Source of the DNA: Mycobacteroides chelonae CCUG 47445
GTDB taxonomy: Bacteria > Actinomycetota > Actinomycetes > Mycobacteriales > Mycobacteriaceae
DNA: 64,000 nucleotides
NCBI RefSeq assembly: GCF_001632805.1
Contig: NZ_CP007220.1
Span: forward strand, 4,340,001-4,404,000
Direction: 5' to 3'
Positions 1,595-63,497 of this stretch are shown here, piece by piece. Position 1 is the stretch's first letter; every line of letters begins with the position of its first letter. Under the pieces are notes generated by a model. That model was given only the letters and a program-made list of their open reading frames with translations. It did no database searches and was not told the DNA's origin. Position numbers and translations under genes: made by a program.

Positions 1595-3595
1595 ATGGAT
1601 GTCGTCGAGGCGAGCATCGCCGATCTGCAGGCCGCACTCGCCGCCGGGGAAACGACGTCAGTCGCCCTGGTCGCAGAGTATCTGCGCCGGATCGCCGCCT
1701 ACGACCGCGGTGGGATCACCCTCAACGCCGTACCCGTCCTGGACCCGCAGGCGTTCACCGCCGCCGCCGAGTCCGATGCGCGTCGCGCGGCCGGTGCCAC
1801 ACTTGGCCCGCTCGACGGCATCCCGTACACCGCCAAGGATTCATACGCCGCGAAGGGACTGCCGGTGGCGGCCGGATCTCCGGCCTTCGCCCGGCTCATC
1901 GCCCAGCGCGATGCGTTCACCATCGCACAACTTCGTACCGCAGGAGCGGTGCTGCTCGGGCTCACCAACATGCCGCCCATGGCGAACGGCGGCATGCAGC
2001 GCGGCGTTTACGGTCGCGCTGAAAGTCCCTACAACAGTGACTATCTGACGTCGGCGTTTGGCTCGGGATCCTCCAATGGATCGGGTACCGCGACGGCCGC
2101 CAGCTTTGGCGCGTTCGGACTCGGCGAGGAGACGTGGAGCTCTGGCCGCGCGCCGGCCTCGTGTAACGCGCTGGTGGCCTACTGCCCTTCGCGCGGCGTG
2201 ATCTCGGTTCGCGGTAACTGGCCGCTCGTGCCCACGATGGACGTCGTCGTTCCGCATACCCGCAGCGTCGCCGACCTGCTGGCGCTCCTGGACGTCATCG
2301 TCGCCGACGACCCGGACCAGCGCGGCGACTTCTGGCGTCGCCAGAAGTGGGTCGAGATCCCGCCCGCATCGACATTGCGGCCCACAAGCTACAGCGCACT
2401 GAGTGATTCCACCGCCGCCACCCTGCGTGGCACCAGGCTGGGTGTGCCACGGATGTACATCGGTGACACCACCGGAGACCGGCCGGTGCAGACCCGTCCA
2501 AGCGTTGTCGACCTGTGGCGACGCATCGCGGACGACCTACGTGCGGCAGGTGCCGAGGTGCTCGAAGTGGACTTCCCTGTCGTCACCAATTACGAAGGCG
2601 CGGCAACGATGCTGGATCGTGGACTCATTCCGTCCGGATACGACGAGCGCGAATTGTGGGACCTTTCCATCTGGGGCTGGGAAGAATTCCTACAGGTCAA
2701 CGGCGATCCCGAGTTGTCGCATGTGCGTGACGTCGACGGCACGCTGATCTTTCCGCCGCCGCCTGGCGCATTGCCCGATCAGTATGACCGTCATCAACTC
2801 GACCTGGAGGTCGATCTCGGCGAGTATCCGGCCCGCGCCGCCGCCGGTGTCGCCGAGCTGGAACAGATCCCCTTGATCGCCGACGGCATCGCCGGACTGG
2901 AGGCGACGCGCCGCATCGACCTTGAGGCGTGGATGGACGCGCTCGGCCTCGACGCCGTCATCCATCCCGCAGTCGCCGACATCGGCCGCTCGGATGCCGA
3001 TGTCAATCCGGCGTCGGCCGACACGGCCTGGCGCAACGGCACGTGGGTCGCCAACGGCAACCTCGTGCCGCGGCACCTCGGAATCCCTTCGGTCACCGTA
3101 CCGATGGGCGCTCTGGACGATATTGGGATGCCTGTCGGGCTCACGATCCTCGGTCGCGGCCACGACGATGTCCGGTTACTGCGTCTGGCCTCCGCCGTCG
3201 AAGCCACTCGGGACCGGCGCACCACGCCGCCGCGGACACCGGCCCTGACGCCTATCGGATTGCCGACCGCAGCCGCCGCCGGCGGTATCGCGCCACGGTG
3301 CGTCATCACCGTCGAAGAGTCAGACCTCGGCGACGGCGACTGCGCCGTCGCTATCACCGTCGCCGTCGAAGGTACGCATCCCGTCGCCGATGCCAGACTG
3401 TACGTCGACGGCGATGAACTCACGCTCACCCAAGGCAGCAATACTTTCACCGCCGCAACGACTCTGCGTGCCGCGGCATCTCGGCCGCGCCATTCGGTCT
3501 GGCGCGATGCCTACGGCTCCTTGATCGTGGCGTTGGTCCGCACCCACGACGGCCGAACCGCGGGAGCATGGACGACCGCTTGCGGCATCGCCTGA
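1595..3595 (+). CDS. Amidase-signature family hydrolase with C-terminal extension
   Basis: A 666-residue amidase of the Ser-cisSer-Lys class. The Lys is in YTAKDSY (about residue 81), the cis-Ser in GSGSSNGSGT (about 156-160) and the nucleophilic Ser in WSSGRAPAS (about 182), a variant of the usual GGSIRIPAS. The amidase fold ends near residue 545; the last 120 residues form an Asp/Thr-rich extension predicted to be beta-rich, absent from most family members. It is translationally close to the agmatine deiminase, so a carbamoyl- or amide-containing polyamine intermediate is a plausible substrate. Substrates cannot be read from this family by sequence alone. Confidence 0.88.
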   Translation: MDVVEASIADLQAALAAGETTSVALVAEYLRRIAAYDRGGITLNAVPVLDPQAFTAAAESDARRAAGATLGPLDGIPYTAKDSYAAKGLPVAAGSPAFARLIAQRDAFTIAQLRTAGAVLLGLTNMPPMANGGMQRGVYGRAESPYNSDYLTSAFGSGSSNGSGTATAASFGAFGLGEETWSSGRAPASCNALVAYCPSRGVISVRGNWPLVPTMDVVVPHTRSVADLLALLDVIVADDPDQRGDFWRRQKWVEIPPASTLRPTSYSALSDSTAATLRGTRLGVPRMYIGDTTGDRPVQTRPSVVDLWRRIADDLRAAGAEVLEVDFPVVTNYEGAATMLDRGLIPSGYDERELWDLSIWGWEEFLQVNGDPELSHVRDVDGTLIFPPPPGALPDQYDRHQLDLEVDLGEYPARAAAGVAELEQIPLIADGIAGLEATRRIDLEAWMDALGLDAVIHPAVADIGRSDADVNPASADTAWRNGTWVANGNLVPRHLGIPSVTVPMGALDDIGMPVGLTILGRGHDDVRLLRLASAVEATRDRRTTPPRTPALTPIGLPTAAAAGGIAPRCVITVEESDLGDGDCAVAITVAVEGTHPVADARLYVDGDELTLTQGSNTFTAATTLRAAASRPRHSVWRDAYGSLIVALVRTHDGRTAGAWTTACGIA

Positions 3596-11655: not shown

Positions 11656-12713
11656 CGGGCCTCCTGACTATGTGCCTTCTCAAACCGGCGGGGATCGACG
11701 GCATTCGGCGACTCGCCTCCGTCAAGCACCACCCCGATCGTCTTCGCCGTCCACGGCGCGAGGAGAAACCCCGAGCGGCCATGACCGGCGGCCACGAGAG
11801 TCCGATCGTCGATCCTGCCCACCATGGGCAGATTGTCATCGGTCATCGGGCGTAGACCCGCCGCGCATTCGGCGAATTCGTACTCCCCCAGACAGGGCAG
11901 CACTGCACACGCGTCGTCGAGCAGGTCCCGCACGCCTGCCACGGCAGGCGCGGTGTCGTGGCCATGCTCGTACTGCGTGGCGCCCACGACGACACCGTCG
12001 TGTCGGGGCACCAGGTAGACATGGCGTCCGTGTACGCGCGCCCGGATCACGTTCGAGGGCGGGGGCATCGCGCCGGGGCGCCGTCGCAGCCTCAACACCT
12101 CGCCCTTCACCGGACGAATCGGCAGATTCGCGAGTGTCGCCGCCTGCACCCCGTTCGCGATCACGATCTGATCGGCAGATGCGTCTTCGACGTGGGCAAC
12201 CGCAGGGCCCTTACGCACGCCGAGCGCCTCACATTCGGTGGCCAACACATGCAACACCGCACGATTGTCGACGGCGAGTTCTTCGGGCGCGGTAAATCCG
12301 CGACGGATGTTCTGCGCCAGCAGCGGCTCGATATCCCGGGCATTGGTGGTCGCGGAAACGGTATGACCGCGCCCGGCCAGCCAGTCCGCCATGGTCCTCA
12401 GCTCGCCGACATCGGCCGTGTCGACGGCCACGGTGAGTGACCCCCGCGCGGTGATCACCGCGCCTGCCGCGTCCTCGTCGAGGAAGCCGTCGCGCCAGAT
12501 CCCGAGCGATTCGATACCCAGATCCAGCAGGTCATCCTCACCCGGCCAGGCCTCGCTGTAGGGCGCAAGCATGCCGCCCGCCACCCAGGACGGGCCCTTT
12601 CGGCCGTCGTCGTGGACGGTGACCTGCCAGCCGCGGCGGGCAGCTTCACGGGCCACGGAAAGCCCGATGACCCCGCCGCCGATGACGGCGACAGAGCCTG
12701 GTTGAGACGACAT
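11652..12713 (-). CDS. thiO: Glycine oxidase ThiO
   Basis: A 353-residue FAD-dependent oxidase that converts glycine to the imine used by ThiG. The dinucleotide-binding motif [21 protein letters not shown] is at the N-terminus and the DAO-family C-terminal motif [18 protein letters not shown] is near the end. The start [10 protein letters not shown] is chosen over an upstream ATG because the latter falls within the riboswitch's 3' part. It is the first gene of the thi operon and lies directly behind the TPP riboswitch. Confidence 0.95.
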
Positions 12714-12725
12714 CACAATCGGAGT

Positions 12726-12818
12726 CACTCCCTTCGCCGGCATGACCCGGATCAGGTCGGACGGTCAGGGCTGGATTCGTTGGCCCACTCTCAGCCCGCT
12801 CATCCCGGGGCTCCCGCG
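12726..12818 (-). ncRNA. TPP riboswitch (THI element)
   Basis: On the minus strand the sequence contains the conserved thi-box parts in order: a GGGGATGAGCGG-like 5' stem with GGGCTGAGAG, a variable P3 region, then ACCTGATCCGGGTCATGCC and closing GGCGAAGGGAG. It lies in the leader of thiO and ends about 13 bases before the thiO ATG. By analogy with known actinobacterial THI elements, binding of thiamine pyrophosphate should hide the thiO ribosome site and lower translation, and so reduce thiO-thiS-thiG. Boundaries are approximate. Confidence 0.95.
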
Positions 12819-12851
12819 TTACTTACATCTACAACGCTAGCGTCTTCGACT

Positions 12852-51234: not shown

Positions 51235-52014
51235 ATGGCGAACCCCACCGGTGGAAATTCCGAGGCCAAGCCCGACTCACAGGGCGACGAGCCTGTGGAC
51301 TCTGCCGAGCAGCCGGAAGGCGCCGCGCACACCCCGGAGATATCCGATACCGCCGATACCGGCCCGGTCCCCCCGCTCGACGATGCGCAGACCGTCGTGA
51401 TGCCTCCGGCAAAACCGGACGTTCCGCGCTACACGGCACCGGGCTTCGACGCCAACAAGACCGAGATGATCGCGCCCGTCGGCGACGATCCGAAGACCGA
51501 GATGATCCAGCCACTGGCGACCCAGGCGCGCCCCAAGATCGCGACCCCGGAGACGATCGCACCACGCAAAGAAGAGAAGCGCAGCTGGGGCTGGGTGATC
51601 GCGCTGACACTCGTCGTCGCCGCGCTGGCCGCGGTGATCGTGCTCGCGGCCGTCATCATCTCGCGTACCAGCGCACCGAAGGCATCGCAAGAAGAGTTGG
51701 TACGCAACAGCATTCAGAACTACGACAACGCCATCCAAACCGGCAATCTGGCGGCGCTGCGCGCCATCACCTGCGGCGAGACCCGCGACGGCTACGTCCG
51801 CTACCCCGATGCCGAATGGTCCCAGACCTATCAGAAGGTGGCCGCCGCCAAGCAGTACCCCGTGGTAGCCAGCATCGACGAGGTGGTGGTCAACGGCGAG
51901 CACGCCGAAGCCAATGTCACCTCTTTCATGGCGTTCGCACCGCAGACCCGCTCATCGCGCAGCTTCGATCTGCAGTTCCGCGACAAGGAATGGAAGATCT
52001 GCCAGTCCGACTAA
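51235..52014 (+). CDS. Membrane protein with TEM-motif N-terminal tail (Rv0361-like)
   Basis: A 259-residue protein: a 118-residue acidic, Pro/Thr-rich cytoplasmic tail, one helix (about 120-142) and an exported NTF2-like domain with Cys ([10 protein letters not shown]) and WKICQSD at the end. The tail repeats a short motif: [17 protein letters not shown] and PKTEMIQP, resembling threonines targeted by mycobacterial Ser/Thr kinases or bound by FHA domains. Its stop overlaps the end of the giant convergent gene by three bases. Confidence 0.85.
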
Positions 52015-55000
52015 CTCCCCGAGCCCGAGGACGAGCCGCCGCCACCGGACGAGGACGAACCACCGGAGGACGAGGACGAGCTCGAACCGCTAGACGAGGT
52101 GGAGCCGCTAGACGAACCGGCGCCCGTCTCACCCGCGCTGTCCCCACCTTCGCCACCAGACTGCTTCTTCGTCCCGTGCGATGAGGTACCCGCGCGCGCA
52201 GATCCTGCCGGCGTGGACTTGTTGGCGCCACCATCACTGGCACGCGAGCCCGTAGCGTTGGTATGGGATCCGGTGTCGGATCCTGTCGTGGCGGAACCAT
52301 CGGCACCTGCACGACCGTCCTTACCGAATGCACCGCCCTTGCCGCCCACCCCACCAGTTTTTGTGGTGCTCTTGGTGCCATCGCCGTTCGCATCGCCTCC
52401 GGCGCCGCCGCCACCGCCATTGCCGATGACACCCGAACTTCCGCCGGTGCCGCCCTTACCTCCCGTGGCCGGTCCGGTCTTCACGAGCCCGCTGGAGGTC
52501 TCGGCCTTGCCTCCGGCCCCTCCGCTGCCGCCATTACCGACGACGGCGTGCGAACTCGCGCCATTGCCGCCATCGCCGCCAACCGCGCTGCCGCCCAGGC
52601 TCGACGAAGCACCGCCGGTGCCACCGGAACCGCCATCACCGGTAAGACCACCCGAGGCTCCGCCGGTGCCACCGGTACCGCCCGTGGTCTCCCCATAGGT
52701 TGTCTTGGCCTCGCCACCGGCACCACCAGCGCCGCCGCTGCCCGCGACCAGGCCGCCGCTACCGCCGGCACCGCCATTACCACCGGTTCCCGGTTCGGAT
52801 GCCCTGGTATCAAACGAATTCGAGGTGCCACCTTGGCCGCCCGCGCCACCATTCCCGAGCATGCCCGCACTGCCGCCGTCACCACCGGCACCGCCGGTCG
52901 ACGTTCCGGTGAAGAAGTTACTGCCCTCTCCGCCCTTGCCGCCGGCACCACCGTCACCCGCCAGTGCGCCGCCCTTGCCACCGTTACCGCCCGCACCGCC
53001 GACACCGGTCTTGCCATCGGCCGTCGCGGATGCGTCGCCGCCCTTACCGCCCGCACCGCCGGTGCCGATCAGACCGGCGTTACCGCCGTCGCCACCCTTC
53101 TGCCCGGGCAGTCCGTCACCGCCGGCGCCGCCGTTACCGAACAGCAGACCGCCGTTGCCACCCTTTTGACCGGGTAATCCCTTGCCGCCGTTGCCGATCA
53201 GCAGACCGCCATCCTGGCCGAGGCCACCGTCACCGATGATCAGGCCGCCCGGTCCGAACAGCGGGCGCTGGGTGTACACACCGGCCGCGTTGGGTGAACC
53301 GTCACCGATGATCAACCCACCCGGTCCGAACAGCGGGCGTCCGCCGAACAGGTTCCATGCCGAGCCCCCGTTGCCGACATTGGTGGCTCCGCACTTGCCC
53401 GCCATCCCCGAAACGCAATCGGCATAAGCACGTTCGGCGATTGCCTTTTCCTCAGCCGACTTCGCGGACGCGAGCCGGTCCTTCGCAGCAGCGGCGGCGT
53501 AATCCGCAGCGGCCTTGTCAGCGGCCGCCTTGGCCGCCGCGTAGCCGTCGGCCTTCTGTTGTGCCGCAGCGAGCTCGTCAGCGGCCTTCTGCGCATCTGC
53601 TCGCGCCGCTGCCGCCTGGTCGGCGGCGGCCTTGGCGGCCGCCTCCGCGGCCGCCCGGTCTCCCGCGGCCGTCTGTGCGGCGGCCGTAGCCTGCGCGGCC
53701 AGCGCCTCGGCGGCCTGTGCCGCACGCTCGGCCTCATCGGCCTGTTCCGCGGCGATCCGGGCTGCGGTCTGTGCCTCGGCGACCTCGGGCGCCGGTGCCC
53801 CCGTGGTCAATGCGGTATCCAATGCGGTCTGCGTGGCCGCGGCCCGTTGCGCGGTCTCGACGGCCTTGGCGCGAGCAGCCGATGCGTCGGACACCGCACT
53901 GCCCGCCACGGCGCCCGCACTCGCCGCGGCCGCGGTCTTGTCTGTCACCGCACGCTCAGCGGATGACTGCTGGGTGTCACGCGCCTGCGCCAACTGCGCG
54001 GCGGCACCGACCTGGATCTCGGTGGATTGGACCTTCTGGTCCGCCTGAGCCTTCGGATCGGTCTGAGCCGCAGCCGCAGCCTCGGCGAAGATCGGGCGGC
54101 AATCCGCGGCAATGATATTGAGGCGCTGCTTAGCTTCCTCCGCGGACTTGTCCATCGCCGCCCGGTCCGCGGCAGCCTTCTCGGCCGCCAACTTCTGGAA
54201 CGCCGCCTGCCCCTCGGCGGCCTGGACCGCTGCCGCATCGGAAGCACTTGCCGCCTCGAGAGTGGCAGCGGCAGCGCGATCCGCGGCGGCCTTGGCGGAG
54301 TCGGCTGCCGCCGCCTGCGCCGAAGCGTCCTTGTCCTTCAACGCCTGATCCGCCGCGGCGCGGTCACGATCAGCGGCAGCCTGAGCTTCGGCGAACACCT
54401 TGGCGGCGTTGGCAGCACGCTCGGCGGATGCGGCGGCGGCTTCCGCGGACCGCAGCGCGTCAGCCGCGGCCTTATCGACGGCGGCCTTGTCCACCCCTGC
54501 TTGAGTTGCCGCGTCGATGACGGCCTTCTGATCACCGACTGCCTGCTCGGCAGCAGCCTTCGCGGCGACCGCCGCATCGGTCGCCGTCTGCACCGCATCC
54601 GCGGTCTGAGTGGCCTTGGCCGCCGCAGCGTCCTTGGCCGCCTGAGCATCCTGAGCGGCCTTGGCCGCATCTGCCAGTGCCTTGTCGGCAGCAGCCTTGG
54701 CTGCCTGAGCATCGGCCGCGGCCTTGGCGTCCTGGGCTGCCTTGTCGCCGGCATTCGTGGCGGCATCCGTGGCGGCCTTCGCTGCCGCGCTGGCATCTGC
54801 CAGGGCCTTGTCCGCGGCCGCCTTGGCCGCAGCAGCCGCGTCGGCCGATGTGGTGGCACCGGAAAGCTGTTGATCTGCAGCTTCTTTCGCCGCAGCGGCA
54901 TCCTTGGCGGCCTGGTCCGCGCCGGCCAGCGCGCCATCGGTAGCGGACTTCGCCGCGGCGGCAGCATCGGCGGCAGCCTTGGCAGCGGCCGCATTCTGGT

Positions 55001-58000
55001 CAGCAGCGTCCTTGATACCGGCCGCATCGGAAGCTGCCTTTGCCGCATCGGCGGCCTTCTGATCGGCGGCACTCTTGGCGGCCGCGGCGTCGGCGGCAGC
55101 CTTGGCGGCATCTGCCGATGCCTGATTCGCCGCATCGGATGTCGACAGGGCGTCCTTGGCCGCTTGATCGGCCGCGGCCAAGGCCTGATCGGCGGCTGCC
55201 TTCGCGGCTTGCGCGGCCGCAGCAGCCTGCGCCGCCTGCCCGGCCTGTACACCCGCCGCATCCGACGCGGAAACCGCACCTTGAACAGCACTGTCCGCAG
55301 CCGCCAAGGCTCCGTCCGCAGCCACCTTCGCCGCAGCGGCCGCATCGGAGGCCGACTTGGCCTCGGCCGCCTTCTGATCGGCAGCAGCCTTGGCCGCCAA
55401 CGCATCCGATGCAACCTTGGCCGCATCCGTTGCCTTCTGGTCGGCTGCCTCCTTTGCGGATGTCGCATCGACGGCGGCCTGGATGGCAAGAGCGGCCTTG
55501 TCCGCGGCATCCTGGGCAGCGGTGCCCGCGTCAGTCGCGCCCTTGTTTGCATCCGTCAGCGCCTGATCGGCACTGGCCTTCGCCGCAGCAGCCGCATCGG
55601 AGGCCGACTTGGCCTGCGCCGCCGCCTGATCCGCGGCGGCCTTGGCCGCGCCCGCATCCGAGACAGCCTTACCGGCGTCCGCGACCGCCTTGTCCGCCGC
55701 GGACTTTGCCACGCCCGCCGCGTCATCGGCGGCCTGCGCGGCTGCGGACTTGTCAGCGGCATCACTGGCAGCGGCAGCGGCGTCGGCGGCAGCCTTCGAA
55801 GTATCGGTGAACACCTTGTCGGCGGCTATCTTTGCCGCAGCGGCAGCATCGGCGGCGGCAGCCGCGTCAGTGGCCTTCTGGTCCGCAGCGGTGGTAGCGG
55901 CAGCGGCATCAGCGGCAGCCTTACCCGCATCGGCCAATGCCGTATCCGCCGCAGACTTGATGGCCGCAGCAGCATCGGCGGCTGTCTTGGCAGCGGTTGC
56001 CTTGTCGGCGGCGTCGTTGGCGCTCGTCGTCGCGTCGGTGGCGGTCTTACCCGCATCGGCCAATGCCGTATCCGCCGCAGACTTGACCGCTGCCGCCGCG
56101 TCGTCGGCGGCCTGTGCGGCGGTGGACTTGTCGGCAGCATCCCTGGCGGCGGCAGCGGCATCGAGAGCGGCCTTATCGGCGTCTGCCAATGCCCCATCCG
56201 CAGCTGCCTTCGCCGCGGCAGCAGCATCCGATGCCGTACGCGCGTCGGCGGCCTTCTGATCGGCAGCCACCTTGGCAGCGGCCGCATCCGCCGCGGCCCT
56301 GTCCGCATCTGCCAGCACCCCCTCGGCTGCCGCCTTGTCGGTGGTGGCGGCGTCCGCCGCAGCCCTGGCATCTGCCGCCTTCTGATCGGCAACCGCCTTG
56401 GCCGCCGCGGCATCCGCCGCCGCCTTATCGGCATCCGCCAGCGCGGTGTCCGCAGCGGCCTTCACCGCCGCAGCCGCATCCGCGACTGTCTTGGCGGCGA
56501 CGGCCTTGTCGGCGGCATCGCTCGCGGTTGCCGCGGCGTCGCTGGCAGCCTTGGCGGCGTCGGTCAACGCCGTGGCGGCGGCCGCGGCCTTGGTCTGCGC
56601 ATCACCCAATGCCGCGTCCGCCGTCGACTTGGCCGCAGCGGCGGCCTGTGCAGCGGCCTTGGCATCGGTGGCGTTTTGAGCGGCCACGGAGGCCGCGTCT
56701 GCTGCGGCCGTGGCCGCCGTGGCGGCATTCGCCGAAGCCTGATCGGCGGCGGCCTTGGCGGCATCAGCATTGGTGACGGCAGTAGCAGCGTCGGCAGCCG
56801 CTTGGTCCGCTGTGCTCTTGGCCGCCGCCGCATCACTGGCAGCCTTGTTCGCATCGGCCAACGCCTTATCCGTGGTGACCTTCACCGCCGCAGCCGCATC
56901 CGCAGCCGTCTGCGCCGCCGCAGCATTCTGATCCGCAACCGTCTTGGCCGCAGCCGCATCACCGGCAGCCTTGTTCGCATCGGCCAACGCCTTATCCGTC
57001 ACCACCTTGGCCGCAGTGGTATCGGTGACAACTTGCTGGGCGTCTACGACCTTCTGATCGGCGAGGGTCTTGGCCGCCGCCGCGTCGCTGGCGGCCTTGT
57101 TCGCATCGGCCAACGCCTTATCCGTGGTGACCTTCACCGCCGCAGCCGCATCCGCAGCCGTCTGCGCCGCCGCAGCATTCTGATCCGCTACCGTCTTGGC
57201 GGCCGCCGCGGCAGCAGCGGCATTCGTTGCGTCGGTCAATGCCTGGTCGGTCACTACCTTGGCCGCAGCGGTGGTGGTGACGGCCTGCTGCGCGGTGCTG
57301 ACCTGTTGCGCTGCGGCTGTGACGTTGTTGTTCGCGGTGTTCGCGTTGGTCTGTGCCGTATTGCGCGCCGCGATCGCCGCGGGCTCCTGGCTGATGGCCG
57401 TCGCCGCCGCGGCATCGGCAACGGTCTTGGCGGCAGCGGCGTTATCGGCGGCGGTCTTGGCGGTCGCTTCGGTGGCCTGAGCCTGCGTCACTGCCGCATT
57501 GCCTGCCGTGAGCCGCTGCTGGGCGCCGGCCAGGAGGGTGCCCAGGGATGCCAGGTTGGCGGCGATACCGACGAGGTTGGTTGTGTAGTAGGTGACGTCT
57601 GCCTGCGCCTGATCGCGCTGCTGCTGCGCCGCAACCGTGGCTGCGTGAGCGTTTTGATAAGCGGTCTGCGTACTCTGGGCCGTCGCGGCCGCGGCGGTAG
57701 CGTCGTCCTTGACCTTCTGGATGGCGTCGACGACCTTCTGTGCATCGCTTAACGCCTTGTCCGCATTCACCTTTGCGGCGTCGGCGTTCTGTTTGGCGGT
57801 GTTGGCCGCGGTGAGTGCTGTCTGAGCATCCGACACCGCCTGATTACTTGCGGTGGCATTGGTCTGGGCGGTCGTCAGCGCAGTATCGGCCGCCGTCTTG
57901 GCCGAAGCAGCATTAGCAGCAGCCTGATCCGCCGCAGCCTTGGCGGCATCCTTGGCAGCCTTATCCGCATTCGCCGCATCCGACGCCGTCTTGGCCTGCG

Positions 58001-61000
58001 CCGCCGCCTGATCCGCAGCGGTCTTCGCCGCGTCGGCGTTCTGTTTGGCGGTGTTGGCCGCGGTGAGTGCTGTCTGAGCATCCGACACCGCCTGATTACT
58101 TGCGGTGGCATTGGTCTGGGCGGTCGTCAGCGCAGTATCGGCCGCCGTCTTGGCCGAAGCAGCATTAGCAGCAGCCTGATCCGCCGCAGCCTTGGCGGCA
58201 TCCTTGGCAGCCTTATCCGCATTCGCCGCATCCGACGCCGTCTTGGCCTGCGCCGCCGCCTGATCCGCAGCAGTCTTCGCAGCCAACGCATCCGCCGCCA
58301 CCTGATCAGCCGCCACCTTCGCAGCATCCTTAGCAGCCTTATCCGCATTCGCCGCATCCGACGCCGTCTTGGCCTGCGCTGCTGCCTGATCCGCAGCAGT
58401 CTTCGCAGCGGCAGCATTAGCGGCAGCCTGATCGGCCGCGGCCTTGGCGGCATCCTTGGCAGCCTTATCCGCATTCGCCGCATCCGAAACCGACTTCGCC
58501 TGCGCCGCCGCCTGATCCGCAGCAGTCTTCGCAGCCAACGCATCCGCCGAGGCCTGCGCCGCAGCGGCGTCTTTTTGATCGGCAAGGGTCTTGGCAGCGG
58601 CGGCATCTGAGGCCGCCCGGCCGGCATCGGCCAGCACACCATCGGCGACAGCCTTGGCAGCGGCGGCGTCACTCGCCGCCTTGCCCGCATCTATTGCCCG
58701 TTGGCCCGCCGCCACTGCGGCATCCGCAGCCGCTCGAGCTGCCGTATCTGCCTGTGCTGCGGCCTGATCCGCCGCGGTCTTAGCGGCATCCTTGGCCGCC
58801 TTGTCAGTATCGGCGGCTGTCTTGGCCGCGGTGGCATCGGCCAACGCTTGATTGCTTGCGGTGGCATTGGTCTGGGCGGTCGTCAGCGCGGCATCGGCCG
58901 CCGTCTTGGCCGAAGCAGCATTAGCGGCAGCTTGATCGGCCGCGGCCTTGGCGGCATCCTTGGCAGCCTTATCCGCATTCGCCGCATCCGAAACCGACTT
59001 CGCCTGCGCCGCCGCCTGATCCGCAGCAGTCTTCGCAGCCAACGCATCCGCCGCCACCTGATCAGCCGCCACCTTCGCAGCATCCTTAGCAGCCTTATCC
59101 GCATTCGCCGCATCCGAAACCGACTTCGCCTGCGCCGCCGCCTGATCCGCAGCAGTCTTCGCAGCCAACGCATCCGCCGCCACCTGATCAGCCGCCACCT
59201 TCGCAGCATCCTTAGCAGCCTTATCCGCATTCGCCGCATCCGAAACCGACTTTGCCTGCGCCGCCGCCCCATCCGCAGCAGTCTTCGCAGCCAACGCATC
59301 CGCAGCCACCTGATCAGCCGCCACCTTCGCAGCGGTGGCCGCGGTCAAGGCGCTTTCGCTGGCGGCGACCCTGGCCTGTGCATCTGTCAGCGCGGTGTCG
59401 GCGGCGGTCTTGGCGGCATCCTTGGCCGCCTTATCGGCAGTGGCCGCATCCAACGCAGCCTTGGCATCCTGATACGCCTTATCCCCCACCGCAGCATGAC
59501 TCTGCGCATTAGCAAAAGCCTGCTCCGCAGCCGTCTTCGCCGCCGCCGCATCCGCAGCAGCCCTGGCCGCATCCGCAGCCTTCGACGCCGCAGCATCCTT
59601 GGCAGCAGCCGCATCCGACGCCGCCTTCGAAGCATCCGTCAACGCCGCTTCCGCGGCAGTCTTCGCCGCATCCTTGGCGGCCTTATCGGCATCGGCGGCG
59701 GCCTGCGCGGCGTCCTTCGCTGCCTTGTCAGCGGCGGCCGCATCAGCGGCCGACTTCGCTTGTGTGGCCACCTGATCGGCAGTGGTCTTGGCCGCCAACG
59801 CATCCGCAGCGGCCTTATCGGCGGTGGCCTTGGCGGCAGTAGCATCAGTCGAGGCCGCCGCGGCGGCGGTGGCCTTGGTCTGCGCATCCGTGGAGGCGGC
59901 ATCCGCGGCGGTCTTGGCCGCCAACGCATCCGCAGCGACCCTGGCCGCATCGGCGGCCTTCGACGCGGCAGCATCCTTGGCAGCGGCGGCATCGGTAGCG
60001 GCCCTCGAGGCATCCGCCAAGGCGGCATCCGCGGCAGTCTTAGCCGCATCCTTGGCGGCCTTATCGGCATCGGCGGCGACCTTGGCCGCGCTGGCGTCAG
60101 CCAGGGCCTTCTCACTGGCGGCAACCTTGCCCTGCGCGTCGGTCACTACCGCATCGGCAGCTGTCTTGGCGGCCAATGCATCCGCCGATGCCTTCGCGGC
60201 ATCCGCGGCCTTGGACGCGGCAGCGTCTTTCGCGGCTGCGGCATCGGCGGCGGCCCTAGAGGCATCCGCCAGCGCGGCGTCGGCAGCCGTCTTCTGTGCG
60301 GCCGCGTCAATGGCGGCCTGCTGCGCCGCGGCCGCCTTTCCAGCCGCCTCGGTTGCCGCGGCGGCCGCTGCTTGCGCGACCCTGTCGGCCTCGGCGCGGG
60401 CCGCGTCGGCGGCGGTCTTGGCGGCATCCTTGGCCGCCTTATCGGCAGTGGCCGCATCCAACGCAGCCTTGGCATCCTGATACGCCTTATCCCCCACCGC
60501 AGCATGACTCTGCGCATTAGCAAAAGCCTGCTCCGCAGCCGTCTTCGCCGCCGCCGCATCCGCAGCAGCCCTGGCCGCATCCGCAGCCTTCGACGCCGCA
60601 GCATCCTTGGCAGCAGCCGCATCCGACGCGATCTTGTCGGCGTTGGCACGCTCGGTGTCGGCAGTGGTCTTGGCCGCCAACGCATCTGCGGCCGCCTTGT
60701 CCGCCGCTGCCTGGGCGGCGGTAGCGTCAGACAAGGCTTTGTCGTTGGCTGCGGCCTTGCTCTGCGCCTCGGCCAGTGCAGCATCGGCAGCGGCCCTGGC
60801 CGCATCGGCAGCCCGCTGCGCAGCGCTGGCGGCGTCGAGTGCCGCCTTGGCATCTTGATACGCCTTGTCCCCCACCGCAGCATGACTCTGCGCATCGGCG
60901 AATGCCTGCTCCGCGGCGGCTTTCGCCGCATCGGCAGCCTGCTGCTGAGCAGCGGCGGCATCGGCGGCGGCCTTCGCATCCTGGTAGGCCTTCTCGTTGG

Positions 61001-61493
61001 CCGCCGCAGCCGCCTGCGCGGCGCTCTGATTAGCAGCCGCGGCTTCGAGAACCGCCTGTGCGTCCAGTGCCGCCCGCGCCGCATCGTCGGCGTCATGGCG
61101 CGCCTGTTCTGCCGCGGCAGCGGCCGCCGCGGCCTGCGCTTGCTTCTCCGCGACCGCCGGATTGGCTGCGGCCTCGGCTGCCGCCTTGTCTGCTTCGGCC
61201 TTACGCAGTGCCGCGCGAGCGGCCGCATCGGCGGCGGCCTTGGCCATCAGGTCGGCCACTGCGGCGGCGCCGGCCGCGGTGTCCGCATAACCCTGCGCTT
61301 CAGAGGTCGGGGCCGAGTTTGGTGTCACAGCCACCGCGGGCAGGGATCCGGAGTAGGCCGTCAGGCTGGTGTCGCCGCTGAAGAGTAATCGCTGCTTCTC
61401 GATGAGCGACTTGGAGACCGAACTACTGCCACCCGCGAGAAGGACCGCTGTCGCAAATATTGCGAGGACAGTTTGGGATCGCGACGCCTGCAT
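52011..61493 (-). CDS. Giant alanine-rich coiled-coil protein with C-terminal PGRS-like module
   Basis: About 3,160 residues in one uninterrupted frame. Layout: residues 1-28 a signal sequence ([15 protein letters not shown]); about 75-2690 an Ala-rich heptad coiled coil ([14 protein letters not shown]) with Lys/Asp at fixed heptad places; a non-repetitive hydrophobic island near 1275-1330 ([20 protein letters not shown]); cysteines near 2461, 2693 and 2701; then two copies of [14 protein letters not shown], and about 370 residues of GGxGGxGG repeats like PE_PGRS proteins without a PE domain; a final Ser/Gly tail. The ATG at 61493 has GAGG five bases upstream; another at 61562 would add 23 residues. 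No LPXTG or terminal helix, so it is predicted to be secreted and non-covalently attached. Function unknown. Confidence 0.88.
52230..53345 (-). repeat. PGRS-like glycine-rich repeat module inside the giant gene
   Basis: About eight copies of a unit of roughly 30-40 residues, each with GGxGGxxGxLxGxGGxGGxGG followed by 8-15 variable residues (for example [24 protein letters not shown]). It starts after two near-identical [14 protein letters not shown] segments. The pattern matches the polyglycine-II sheets predicted for PE_PGRS proteins. Confidence 0.85.
57778..58271 (-). repeat. Near-identical 242-bp direct repeat, offset 252 bp, inside the giant gene
   Basis: 57778-58019 is repeated almost exactly at 58030-58271. 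The offset is 252 bases, i.e. two 126-bp units (84 residues, 12 heptads), so the frame and the heptad register are kept. This indicates recent in-register duplication. Confidence 0.85.
58929..59335 (-). repeat. Tandem 126-bp (42-residue) units inside the giant gene
   Basis: The block beginning CCGCAGCAGTCTTCGCAGCC recurs at 59021, 59147 and 59273, exactly 126 bases apart, with only a few changes. Each unit codes for six heptads ([42 protein letters not shown]). Confidence 0.9.
59398..59619 (-). repeat. Copy 1 of a 222-bp dispersed direct repeat in the giant gene
   Basis: Matches 60406-60627 almost base for base, at an offset of 1,008 bases (eight 126-bp units). It codes for the [19 protein letters not shown] part with [11 protein letters not shown] third, shorter relative begins near 60851, 378 bases (three units) from copy 2. 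Confidence 0.85.
60406..60627 (-). repeat. Copy 2 of the 222-bp dispersed direct repeat in the giant gene
   Basis: Partner of the copy 1,008 bases away. The whole-unit spacing shows that the repeats are maintained in the 42-residue register. Confidence 0.85.
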
Positions 61494-61850
61494 GACTGCC
61501 TCACTTGCCTGACCATCCGGCACACGCCGATGTGAGCCGGTAACGGCGAGATTAGACGTCATGGAGCAAAAATGCGCTGAGAATCGGAAAAGTAACCTGA
61601 GAAAATCTTAAACATGCATTTAAGAACGTATAAATGCCTGATTTAGTGAAACTTCAAGGAATTTGCCAATTACCTGACTTCCGAGTCAGGTAATGGACAA
61701 TTGACAACCGTGTCTACTAAGGCTGTAGTGCCGTAGCCACACAACACCCCACTGGGATTCGAGGTCCCAGAAATATCGCGAAAACGAACATGTGTAGCGA
61801 AATATGAACGGCGCGAACAGCATGATCACTGCACACGTGTCAGATAAGGA
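61494..61850. other. AT-rich intergenic region upstream of the giant gene
   Basis: About 290-357 bases without a gene, clearly richer in A+T than its surroundings (for example AAAATCTTAAACATGC and AACGTATAAATGCC). It should hold the promoter of the giant gene. The best structure is the dyad at 61669-61694. I see no RNA gene here and no T-run terminator for the small membrane-protein gene that precedes it. Confidence 0.7.
61669..61694. promoter_or_regulatory. Perfect 11-bp-arm dyad upstream of the giant gene
   Basis: ATTACCTGACT and AGTCAGGTAAT enclose the 4-nt loop TCCG. With one bulged A the stem extends (CC...GG), and flanking AATTTGCC and GGACAATT continue the symmetry imperfectly. It lies about 176-201 bases upstream of the preferred ATG (107-132 of the alternative). 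It may be an operator or an mRNA hairpin; no T-run follows it. Confidence 0.6.
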
Positions 61851-62345
61851 CTACTTGCAGAGTTCGACGATGTGCTTGCTCAGCTCGTCGGCCTTGCTCA
61901 GCCGCTGCGCCTGCTTCGGGTCGGTGTTCGGTGTCTCAGCAATAGCCGCCGCACCCACGTCCATGAGCGCGTTGCCGAAGTCCCGAATGCTCGCCGCAAG
62001 ATCGGGCGGCGTCGCAGGGTCCAGCCGCGCCAGCAGATACTGTCCGCCGTTGAAAAGTGCGATCCGTGCGTTGGCAGCGCTGGCCAGCGTCCCCACCACG
62101 CCGGCGTTCTCGGGAAGCGCCCGGTTGGTGTTCAGCATGACAGCGTTACGAACCAAACTCGCGCTGGCACACGCCTGCGTCTTCGCATCGGCCCGCTGCG
62201 CCGCCGTGTAATCAGCTTGAGCCGGTGCCCGCCCACGGGATAGGACCAGCACCAACGCCGTCACCGCCAGCACGAGTGCGACCAGGGCCGCCACTCCCGC
62301 CGACCGCTCAAGGACCACCAGAACTTTCCGCCAGAGATCCGCCAC
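61851..62345 (-). CDS. Small single-pass membrane protein of unknown function
   Basis: A 164-residue protein: residues about 15-37 form one helix (SAGVAALVALVLAVTALVLVL), followed by a mainly helical exported domain with two cysteines (QACASASLVRN near residue 58 and VELCK at the end) that could form a disulfide. It resembles the size and layout of Mce-associated or Rv0361-type membrane proteins, but I do not recognise a family. It is transcribed toward the giant gene, so a functional link is possible. Confidence 0.75.
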   Translation of the reverse strand: MADLWRKVLVVLERSAGVAALVALVLAVTALVLVLSRGRAPAQADYTAAQRADAKTQACASASLVRNAVMLNTNRALPENAGVVGTLASAANARIALFNGGQYLLARLDPATPPDLAASIRDFGNALMDVGAAAIAETPNTDPKQAQRLSKADELSKHIVELCK

Positions 62346-62438: not shown

Positions 62439-63497
62439 CTAGGCCAATCCGGCCGAGACCGACCGGCCCGCCGACTTCAGGTCGTTGCAGGCCTCGATGA
62501 CACGCTCAGTCATGTTGGCCTCGGCCTTCTTCAGGTAGCTGCGCGGGTCGTAGGTCTTCTTGTTGCCCACCTCGCCGTCGATCTTGAGCACACCGTCATA
62601 GTTGGCGAACATGTGCCCGGCGATCGGCCGGGTGAATGCGTACTGGGTATCGGTGTCGACATTCATCTTCACGACGCCGTAGCGCAGCGAGTCCTCGATC
62701 TCGGACTTCAGCGAGCCCGACCCGCCGTGGAACACGAAGTCGAACGGCTTGGAGCCCTCTGCCAGACCAAGTTTGGCCGAGGCAACGCGCTGCCCCTCGG
62801 CCAGCACCTCCGGCTTGAGCTTCACGTTTCCGGGCTTGTACACACCGTGCACGTTGCCGAAGGTCGCGGCCAGGAGATACCGGCCGTTCTCGCCGACACC
62901 AAGTGCCTCGACGGTCTTCTCGAAGTCCTCCGACGAGGTGTAGAGCTTCTCGTTGATCTCGGCCTCGACGCCGTCTTCTTCACCGCCGACCACACCGATC
63001 TCCACCTCGAGGATGATGTGCGCCTTCGCGGTCGCCGCCAGCAGTTCCTGCGCGATCTCGAGGTTCTCGCCGATCGGCACCGCCGAGCCGTCCCACATAT
63101 GGGACTGGAACAGCGGGTTCTGCCCGGCGACCACCCGCTCCTGAGAGATGGCGATGAGCGGACGCACAAAGCTGTCCAGCTTGTCCTTGGGGCAGTGATC
63201 GGTGTGCAGGGCGACGGTGATGCCGTACTTGGCGGCGACCACGTGCGCGAACTCGGCGAGCGCGACCGCGCCGGTCACCATGTCCTTGATGCCCAGACCC
63301 GAACCGAATTCCGCACCACCGGTGGAGAACTGGATGATGCCGTCGCTACCCGCGTCGGCGAAACCTTTGATCGCGGCGTTGATGGTTTCCGATGAGGTGC
63401 AGTTGATGGCCGGGAAGGCAAAGGAATGCTCCTTGGCCCGGTCCAGCATTTCGGCGTAGACCTCGGGCGTGGCGATGGGCACTTCGACGACCTCCAT
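62439..63497 (-). CDS. fba: Fructose-bisphosphate aldolase, class II
   Basis: A 352-residue zinc aldolase that splits fructose-1,6-bisphosphate in glycolysis. Motifs: FPAINCTSSETINAAIKGF, ALHTDHCPKDKLDSF with the zinc His/Asp, GVVGGEEDGVEAEINEKLY, TFGNVHGVYKPGNVKL and FDFVFHGGSGSLKSEI. Close to the M. tuberculosis enzyme (Rv0363c). The N-terminus has five extra residues (MEVVE) before VPIATPEVYAEML. Confidence 0.97.
   Translation of the reverse strand: MEVVEVPIATPEVYAEMLDRAKEHSFAFPAINCTSSETINAAIKGFADAGSDGIIQFSTGGAEFGSGLGIKDMVTGAVALAEFAHVVAAKYGITVALHTDHCPKDKLDSFVRPLIAISQERVVAGQNPLFQSHMWDGSAVPIGENLEIAQELLAATAKAHIILEVEIGVVGGEEDGVEAEINEKLYTSSEDFEKTVEALGVGENGRYLLAATFGNVHGVYKPGNVKLKPEVLAEGQRVASAKLGLAEGSKPFDFVFHGGSGSLKSEIEDSLRYGVVKMNVDTDTQYAFTRPIAGHMFANYDGVLKIDGEVGNKKTYDPRSYLKKAEANMTERVIEACNDLKSAGRSVSAGLA

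Follow-up and report, generated by a model that had tools for sequence, protein, structure and literature searches.

Along the chromosome of Mycobacteroides chelonae CCUG 47445, a stretch of 64,000 nucleotides (contig NZ_CP007220.1, positions 4,340,001 to 4,404,000; hereafter the window) carries a minus-strand gene of about 9.5 kb, at window positions 52011 to 61493, for an Ala-rich protein of 3,160 residues that ends in a glycine-rich PGRS domain. What such a giant protein might be built for is the question that this locus raises. Our computational analysis revealed four new features, namely a charge pattern that recurs in all 12 coiled-coil arms compared (basic at heptad position e, acidic at g), coil insertions and deletions in multiples of seven residues, a hinge near the middle of the coil, and an exchangeable C-terminal module. 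The constant part of the family comprises a signal, an arm, the hinge and a second arm. As the most likely working model, judged from likeness to known systems, we propose that the giant protein would act like a rod on the cell surface whose anchor, the PGRS domain, is of an already known type.

The giant gene and its reading frame

The gene occupies a single frame of 3,160 codons followed by a stop codon (52011–52013), with residues numbered from the Met at 61493, and the plus strand of the same interval is interrupted by stops. The minus-strand frame is open from an ATG at 61562, giving 3,183 aa with the Met at 61493 as M24, compared with at most 863 codons in 100 block shuffles of the interval. 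Among the related genomes (denoted by G numbers), G050 has a TAG upstream of the Met homologous to 61493, the G230 frame starts at the corresponding position, and an ATG occupies that position in G309 as well, though the G309 frame extends further upstream; therefore, the Met at 61493 was taken as the better start. In each of the six copies of the giant gene that lie whole on one contig the frame was open, and its coding nature was confirmed by ratios of nonsynonymous to synonymous substitution rates (dN/dS) of about 0.03 to 0.18 over the arms, hinge, junction and PGRS domain. Long open frames also occur on the antisense (plus) strand, at 54027–57752 (1,241 codons) and 58701–61388 (895 codons); these are probably by-products of the Ala-codon repeats and might be mis-called as genes. 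The segments of the gene are as follows, with the evidence for each in brackets.

52011–61493, minus strand: whole giant gene (open reading frame, orthologue starts, dN/dS)
61413–61493, minus strand: signal-like N-terminus of 27 residues, 1–27 (hydropathy, alignment)
61299–61412, minus strand: short fast-evolving N-terminal head, residues 28–65 (dN/dS)
57774–61298, minus strand: arm 1, residues 66–1240, one heptad register with Ala at a and d, Lys at e and Asp at g and b, in 42-residue repeats (heptad analysis)
57294–57773, minus strand: central hinge, residues about 1241–1400, containing a 22-residue stretch, with the heptad register shifting inside it (conservation, AF2, dN/dS)
54504–57293, minus strand: arm 2, residues 1401–2330, same heptad pattern in a shifted register, shorter than its G088 and G050 counterparts by 42 + 154 residues (heptad analysis, alignment)
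53412–54503, minus strand: junction, residues 2331–2694, irregular Ala-rich helix with conserved Cys2465 (AF2, conservation)
53391–53417, minus strand: conserved Cys pair C2693 and C2701 (CVSGMAGKC) (conservation)
53232–53411, minus strand: disordered linker with two 14-residue entry motifs, of which G309 has a single one (conservation, AF2)
52284–53231, minus strand: PGRS domain, residues about 2755–3070, predicted polyglycine-II sandwich with a strand spacing of 33–38 residues (AF2, Foldseek, Pfam)
52014–52283, minus strand: disordered fast-evolving Ser/Gly tail, residues 3071–3160 (dN/dS, AF2)

This layout agrees in large part with a preliminary description of the locus made from the sequence alone, which had claimed an uninterrupted frame of about 3,160 residues, a signal sequence, a cysteine junction and a Ser/Gly tail: the frame held on the minus strand, hydropathy located a hydrophobic N-terminus, three Cys residues lie at 2465, 2693 and 2701, and the tail can be read directly from the sequence. 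Two of its claims needed revision. The roughly 2,600 residues of Ala-rich heptads are indeed Ala-rich, but strict heptads extend over only about 2,100 residues, divided between two blocks that differ in phase, residues 2331–2694 being helical and not heptad-regular; and from the supposed PE_PGRS-like module the PGRS half was retained, while searches for a PE domain gave no match. That description had not included the central hinge, the two heptad phases or the exchangeable C-terminus.

Two Ala-rich heptad arms with a parallel charge pattern

The heptad register, assigned from Ala content, runs through arm 1 as a single register without a skip (residues 66–1240, about 1,175 residues). The residue-by-position information at period 7 reached z 60 in arm 1 and z 40 in arm 2, with values of 30 and 19 in the relatives G230 and G238, respectively. 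Ala was richest at positions a and d (85/68% in arm 1 and 93/70% in arm 2). Position e was occupied by Lys or Arg with almost no acidic residue, and position g by Asp or Glu with almost no basic residue, in 12 of the 12 arms of the six unsplit members; as the arms share repeats, these are not 12 independent tests. In arm 1 of the window the ratio of positive to negative charges was 58:1 at e and 0:46 at g.

The consequences of this pattern for chain packing were evaluated by counting charge pairs. For in-register parallel chains, the attractive to repulsive g–e′ pairs numbered 21:0 in arm 1 and 14:0 in arm 2 of the window (21:1 and 14:0 with slightly different arm limits), and no arm of any member had more than two repulsive pairs, the weakest being arm 1 of G238 with 6:2. 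Parallel contacts between arm 1 and arm 2 were likewise attractive (38:1 at best, mean net +26), and antiparallel contacts were net repulsive in every setting tried for the window arms and for G088. The pattern of basic e and acidic g positions thus supports a parallel coiled coil, of which it would be the signature. Read as a straight helix, residues 65–2330 would span 336 nm and residues 65–2690 would span 390 nm, which fits the fibre of several hundred nanometres envisaged in the preliminary description.

A conserved hinge near the middle of the coil

The results of the alignment revealed a 180-residue block with a YY pair near its centre, common to all six unsplit members and 43–98% identical to that of the window. 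The distances from an N-terminal marker to YY and from YY to an end marker, the markers being picked after inspection, were 1188/1213 residues in G088, 1146/1213 in G309, 727/834 in G230, 517/541 in G238 and 1188/1017 in the window. The end marker was unmatched in G050, the coil of which aligns without gaps to that of G088, hence also 1188/1213. The hinge therefore lies near mid-coil although the coil length varies 2.3-fold among members. A plain rod explains the parallel charges and a plain hairpin explains the mid-coil hinge, so that either explains just one of the two.

The signal-like N-terminus and the C-terminal module

The N-terminal hydropathy reached 2.14 over 15 residues from position 8, compared with 1.42 for the best 19-residue segment elsewhere, and a hydrophobic N-terminus was found in all six unsplit members. 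A Pfam search of the N-terminal 97 residues returned no domain, and neither an LPXTG motif nor a lipobox Cys was seen on direct reading of the sequence, the first Cys being residue 2465. By analogy, the protein would be exported via a Sec-type signal. According to one source, only slow growers possess ESX-5 (PMC4418733), the usual route of PGRS proteins; a signal-like N-terminus on the giant protein agrees with this.

The C-terminus was modelled with AF2 over residues 2440–3160 from eight sequences (mean predicted local distance difference test, pLDDT, 68; predicted template-modelling score, pTM, 0.49). The model placed an antiparallel helical hairpin at 2480–2564 and 2568–2694, joined by a GAPxPE turn, in the junction (block pLDDT mostly 70–88, and 46–61 beyond about residue 2650), followed by a disordered linker, a sandwich at about 2755–3070 (block pLDDT 65–95) and a disordered tail. 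In a Foldseek search with this model, the sole matches below 0.001 were two chains of 7jjv, a polyproline-II bundle from a springtail antifreeze protein (E 1.5e-5), as expected for a polyglycine-II model of PGRS. Pfam PF21526 matched the C-terminal piece with E 1.4e-4 and 22.6 bits, below the curated cut-off of 27 bits. The entry motif reads GRPLF in place of GRPLI and may be a variant of the motif reported to mark the start of PGRS in PE_PGRS proteins (PMC9436101). The same report proposed that PGRS sails are rooted in the mycomembrane.

Selection, coil length and distribution

The dN/dS was calculated region by region in four pairwise comparisons. The values were 0.12–0.18 in arm 1, 0.07–0.12 in the hinge, 0.10–0.16 in arm 2, 0.03–0.08 in the junction and 0.04–0.10 in PGRS, showing purifying selection on all five, and the hinge was below either arm in four of the four comparisons. 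Evolution was fastest at both protein ends, with 0.25–0.32 in the Ser/Gly tail and, for region 1–66, 0 in the closest pair and 0.25–0.46 in the other three, more distant ones.

Coil length in the four close orthologues varied by 42, 42 and 154 residues (alignment to G309 splits the last into 84 + 70), all multiples of seven, compared with differences of 24, 5, 5, 2, 1, 3 and similar in the linker, PGRS and tail. Compared with G088 and G050, arm 2 of the window lacks 196 residues. The assembly of CCUG 47445 is described as an Illumina/PacBio hybrid with gaps closed by short reads (PMC4901242), so a repeat collapse in the window array is possible, as is a true deletion.

The giant gene was found in seven genomes in total, as six unsplit genes and one in G168 that is divided between contigs C14 (N-terminus) and C21 (C-terminus). 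The N-terminal query matched six of 396 sampled Mycobacterium genomes, these being the source genome and G088 (98% identity), G168 (89%), G050 (86%), G309 (75%) and G230 (41%). The arm query at E 1e-8 also matched six of the 396, adding G238, with G168 not among the matches. A hinge profile matched five of 307 genomes and added no new one; G309, a carrier of the hinge, is absent from these matches, presumably because that sample did not include it. The three intact chelonae-type orthologues (G088, G050 and G309) measure 3,293–3,370 residues, and the G230 and G238 relatives 1,950 and 1,606 aa. The G238 relative (L085:5599-10419) bears a module of about 230 residues and a Ser/Gly tail in place of PGRS, and this module had no Pfam or NCBIfam match. 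Named copies of the giant protein occur in Mycobacterium sp. D16R12 and Mycobacteroides sp. LB1. The combination of features, which the preliminary description took to be undescribed, proved conserved in relatives, and no description of the protein or its family was found in the titles and abstract openings of the matches listed from the open-licence PubMed Central literature.

PGRS proteins without a PE domain

The PE domain (PF00934) was searched for in the whole protein and in the N-terminal 97 residues and was not found; the giant protein is therefore not a PE_PGRS protein. A junction/PGRS profile matched 21 of 396 genomes, comprising five orthologues, G230 and 15 weak matches (G339 through the coil stretch only). 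At 17 of the 22 loci listed, PGRS frames of 231–629 codons began with a hydrophobic stretch and lacked PE by eye (L019, L020, L022-L025, L027, L028, L030-L033 and L036-L040); G037, G084 and G322 each had two such matches and G288 had three. A protein search with the C-terminus gave 39 matches: a PE domain was precomputed for 13 of them and for none of the other 26, of which 14 lacked any Pfam domain. The 14 best database matches carried no precomputed PE domain. When 12 proteins were scanned, all matched PGRS (three below the cut-off) and none matched PE, which, the picks being pre-selected for lacking a precomputed PE domain, shows only that a PE-less class exists. Profile A1 reached PE-less PGRS proteins at E 6e-8 to 1e-3. 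The giant protein shares the marks of this class, having a signal-like N-terminus, no PE domain and a PGRS domain with the shared entry stretch. According to a 2025 review (PMC11939664), M. smegmatis and its relatives have PGRS proteins of doubtful N-terminal annotation, and no PE_PGRS genes were found in M. avium or in M. abscessus, to which the present species is close; the class of PGRS domains behind a signal-like N-terminus fits the gap left by that review.

Genomic neighbourhood

Three genes flank the giant gene in the window.

62439–63497, minus strand: fructose-bisphosphate aldolase (fba)
61851–62345, minus strand: upstream neighbour of 164 aa, with a single hydrophobic segment and a conserved place next to the giant gene in the chelonae clade (sequence search)
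51235–52014, plus strand: downstream convergent neighbour, 259 aa with one hydrophobic segment, overlapping the end of the giant gene by 4 bases

The order fba, 164-aa gene, giant gene, 259-aa gene, DUF3151 and cation efflux was kept in G088, G050 and G309. Relatives of the 164-aa protein occurred in 285 of 396 genomes; it was at least 76% identical in five genomes, all of which carry the giant gene, and the other matches listed were at most 57% identical. The upstream gap (61563–61850) lies in stretches of lower G+C content (0.60–0.61, compared with about 0.70 in the gene) and gave no Rfam match at gathering scores. Elsewhere in the window, a TPP riboswitch was identified at 12712–12827 on the minus strand (Rfam RF00059, 60.7 bits).

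Proposed model and alternative explanations

To account for these results, we propose that the giant protein forms a parallel Ala-core fibre, that a Sec-type signal directs its export and that a PGRS sail fixes it to the mycomembrane, a reading to which we give about an even chance. The signal would carry the chain across the inner membrane, and two or more chains would align in parallel through Ala-packed heptads and g–e′ salt bridges into a thin rod of about 0.3–0.4 micrometres with a joint at its middle. The helical hairpin and the Cys residues near the C-terminus might lock the chains together, possibly by disulfides, and the PGRS sandwich would then anchor them to the mycomembrane in the way suggested for the sails of PE_PGRS proteins. 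Projecting from the surface or lying along it, the rod could serve as a spacer, tether or matrix fibre, and a role as stalk or spacer is plausible.

Several points weigh against this model. Coiled coils with Ala-only cores are weak. The period-7 indels amount to about three events, two of which equal the 42-residue repeat unit, so that only the 154-residue difference escapes that explanation; against the distant G230, only nine of 15 arm gaps were multiples of seven as aligned, the other six being neighbouring pairs that sum to 42, 84 and 42 and that may reflect alignment splitting. No clear signal cleavage site was seen in the alignment of the chelonae clade, and an uncleaved inner-membrane anchor is therefore possible. 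The net charge of the PGRS domain is near zero (−3), in contrast to the negative faces of the sails described (PMC9436101). Finally, AF2 returned helix hairpins of low confidence for the hinge piece, and the near-equal arms are left unexplained by a plain parallel rod.

Both the mid-coil hinge and the parallel charges would be explained if parallel rods were packed with a half stagger, arm 1 lying beside arm 2 of the next chain. We regard as rather unlikely, though it would join the two, the resulting picture of a mycobacterial family of fibres that assemble by themselves in the outer envelope and whose C-terminal anchors (the PGRS sail or others) can be exchanged. If true, equal arms around a hinge would yield gap-free filaments on the cell surface, exported without the type VII (PE) N-terminus.

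The conserved mid-coil hinge also recalls an SMC-like hairpin, in which the chain would fold at the hinge with arms 1 and 2 antiparallel, a length of about 180 nm and the N- and C-termini together. The AF2 model of residues 1100–1490, built from two sequences (mean pLDDT 72, pTM 0.31), does contain helix hairpins, with breaks at about 1292–1307 and 1406–1410, but it also puts a turn inside the regular repeats at 1168–1172, so its turns are untrustworthy and it is not decisive. In such a fold the e–e′ and g–g′ contacts would be Lys–Lys and Asp–Asp, and by charge counts the best antiparallel setting gave three attractive to 19 repulsive pairs between the arms of the window and 2:20 in G088 over 12 offsets. 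The distance markers that place the hinge at mid-coil were chosen after looking, and PGRS was the only Pfam match of the whole protein, with no SMC ATPase head domain. Overall, this fold appears improbable.

We consider it similarly doubtful that the protein is a periplasmic tether or strut, its N-terminal helix staying in the inner membrane, PGRS lying in the outer membrane and the coil running along or between them. The unclear cleavage site in the chelonae clade would suit this arrangement, as would the resemblance of the junction hairpin to RipA/RipC-type periplasmic coils, but the hairpin aligns only weakly to the N-terminal domain of RipA (6ewy; E 0.042, TMt 0.75), its shape being a generic one, and a search with the junction sequence profile found no relative in the PDB. 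The G238 signal has an AxA-type site and is by eye likely cleaved, and a rod of 336–390 nm far exceeds the mycobacterial envelope, the thickness of which is some tens of nanometres.

An Ala-rich hydrophilic helix acting as a stress protein, like late embryogenesis abundant (LEA) or antifreeze proteins, is very improbable: it is favoured by the composition, by the springtail antifreeze likeness of the PGRS fold and by an Ala-rich fish antifreeze protein at Foldseek rank 26 (4ke2, E 0.26), but the arms showed no 11-residue periodicity (z −1.0 and −0.9, against 60 and 40 at period 7), and the heptad register is held across 1,175 residues. As judged by that periodicity, membership in LEA group 3 or type I antifreeze proteins was rejected. 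That the gene is neutral or decaying, non-functional and retained by chance is hardly credible, for although its spread is narrow and its array length changes, dN/dS remains at 0.03–0.18 across the five main segments and the frame is open in all six unsplit copies.

If the parallel-fibre model holds, structural studies would gain a natural, extremely long parallel coiled coil with an Ala core, and a rapidly growing opportunistic mycobacterium might bear a fibrous layer. Studies of PGRS sails concern PE_PGRS proteins whose export runs through ESX-5; a PGRS domain behind a signal-like N-terminus and a long rod would separate the anchoring job of the sail from PE-dependent export and make anchoring testable.

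Comparison with known systems

Among the closest counterparts are the G230 and G238 relatives, which share the signal-like N-terminus, the heptad arms, the same hinge and the parallel charge pattern. They differ at the C-terminus, where G230 has a degenerate PGRS entry, no PGRS array and no junction Cys, and G238 has its own module. The PE_PGRS proteins of M. tuberculosis and M. marinum resemble the giant in the predicted PGRS sandwich, the GRPL-type entry motif and the variable loops, whereas the giant lacks PE and has a signal-like N-terminus and about 2,600 helical residues ahead of PGRS. The PE-less proteins annotated as PGRS repeat-containing (e.g., P0002 and P0017) have a signal-like N-terminus and PGRS, and many share with the giant an entry stretch like GPGGxLIGxG, but at about 300–630 aa they lack the giant coil. 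SMC and Rad50 are alike in having two arms of similar length around a hinge, whereas the giant has no ATPase head match, charges that oppose antiparallel arms and a signal-like N-terminus. The myosin rod and tropomyosin share the heptads, the e/g charges and the long-period repeats; unlike these, the giant is a predicted exported-type bacterial protein with an Ala core and an arm 1 that runs without a skip residue.

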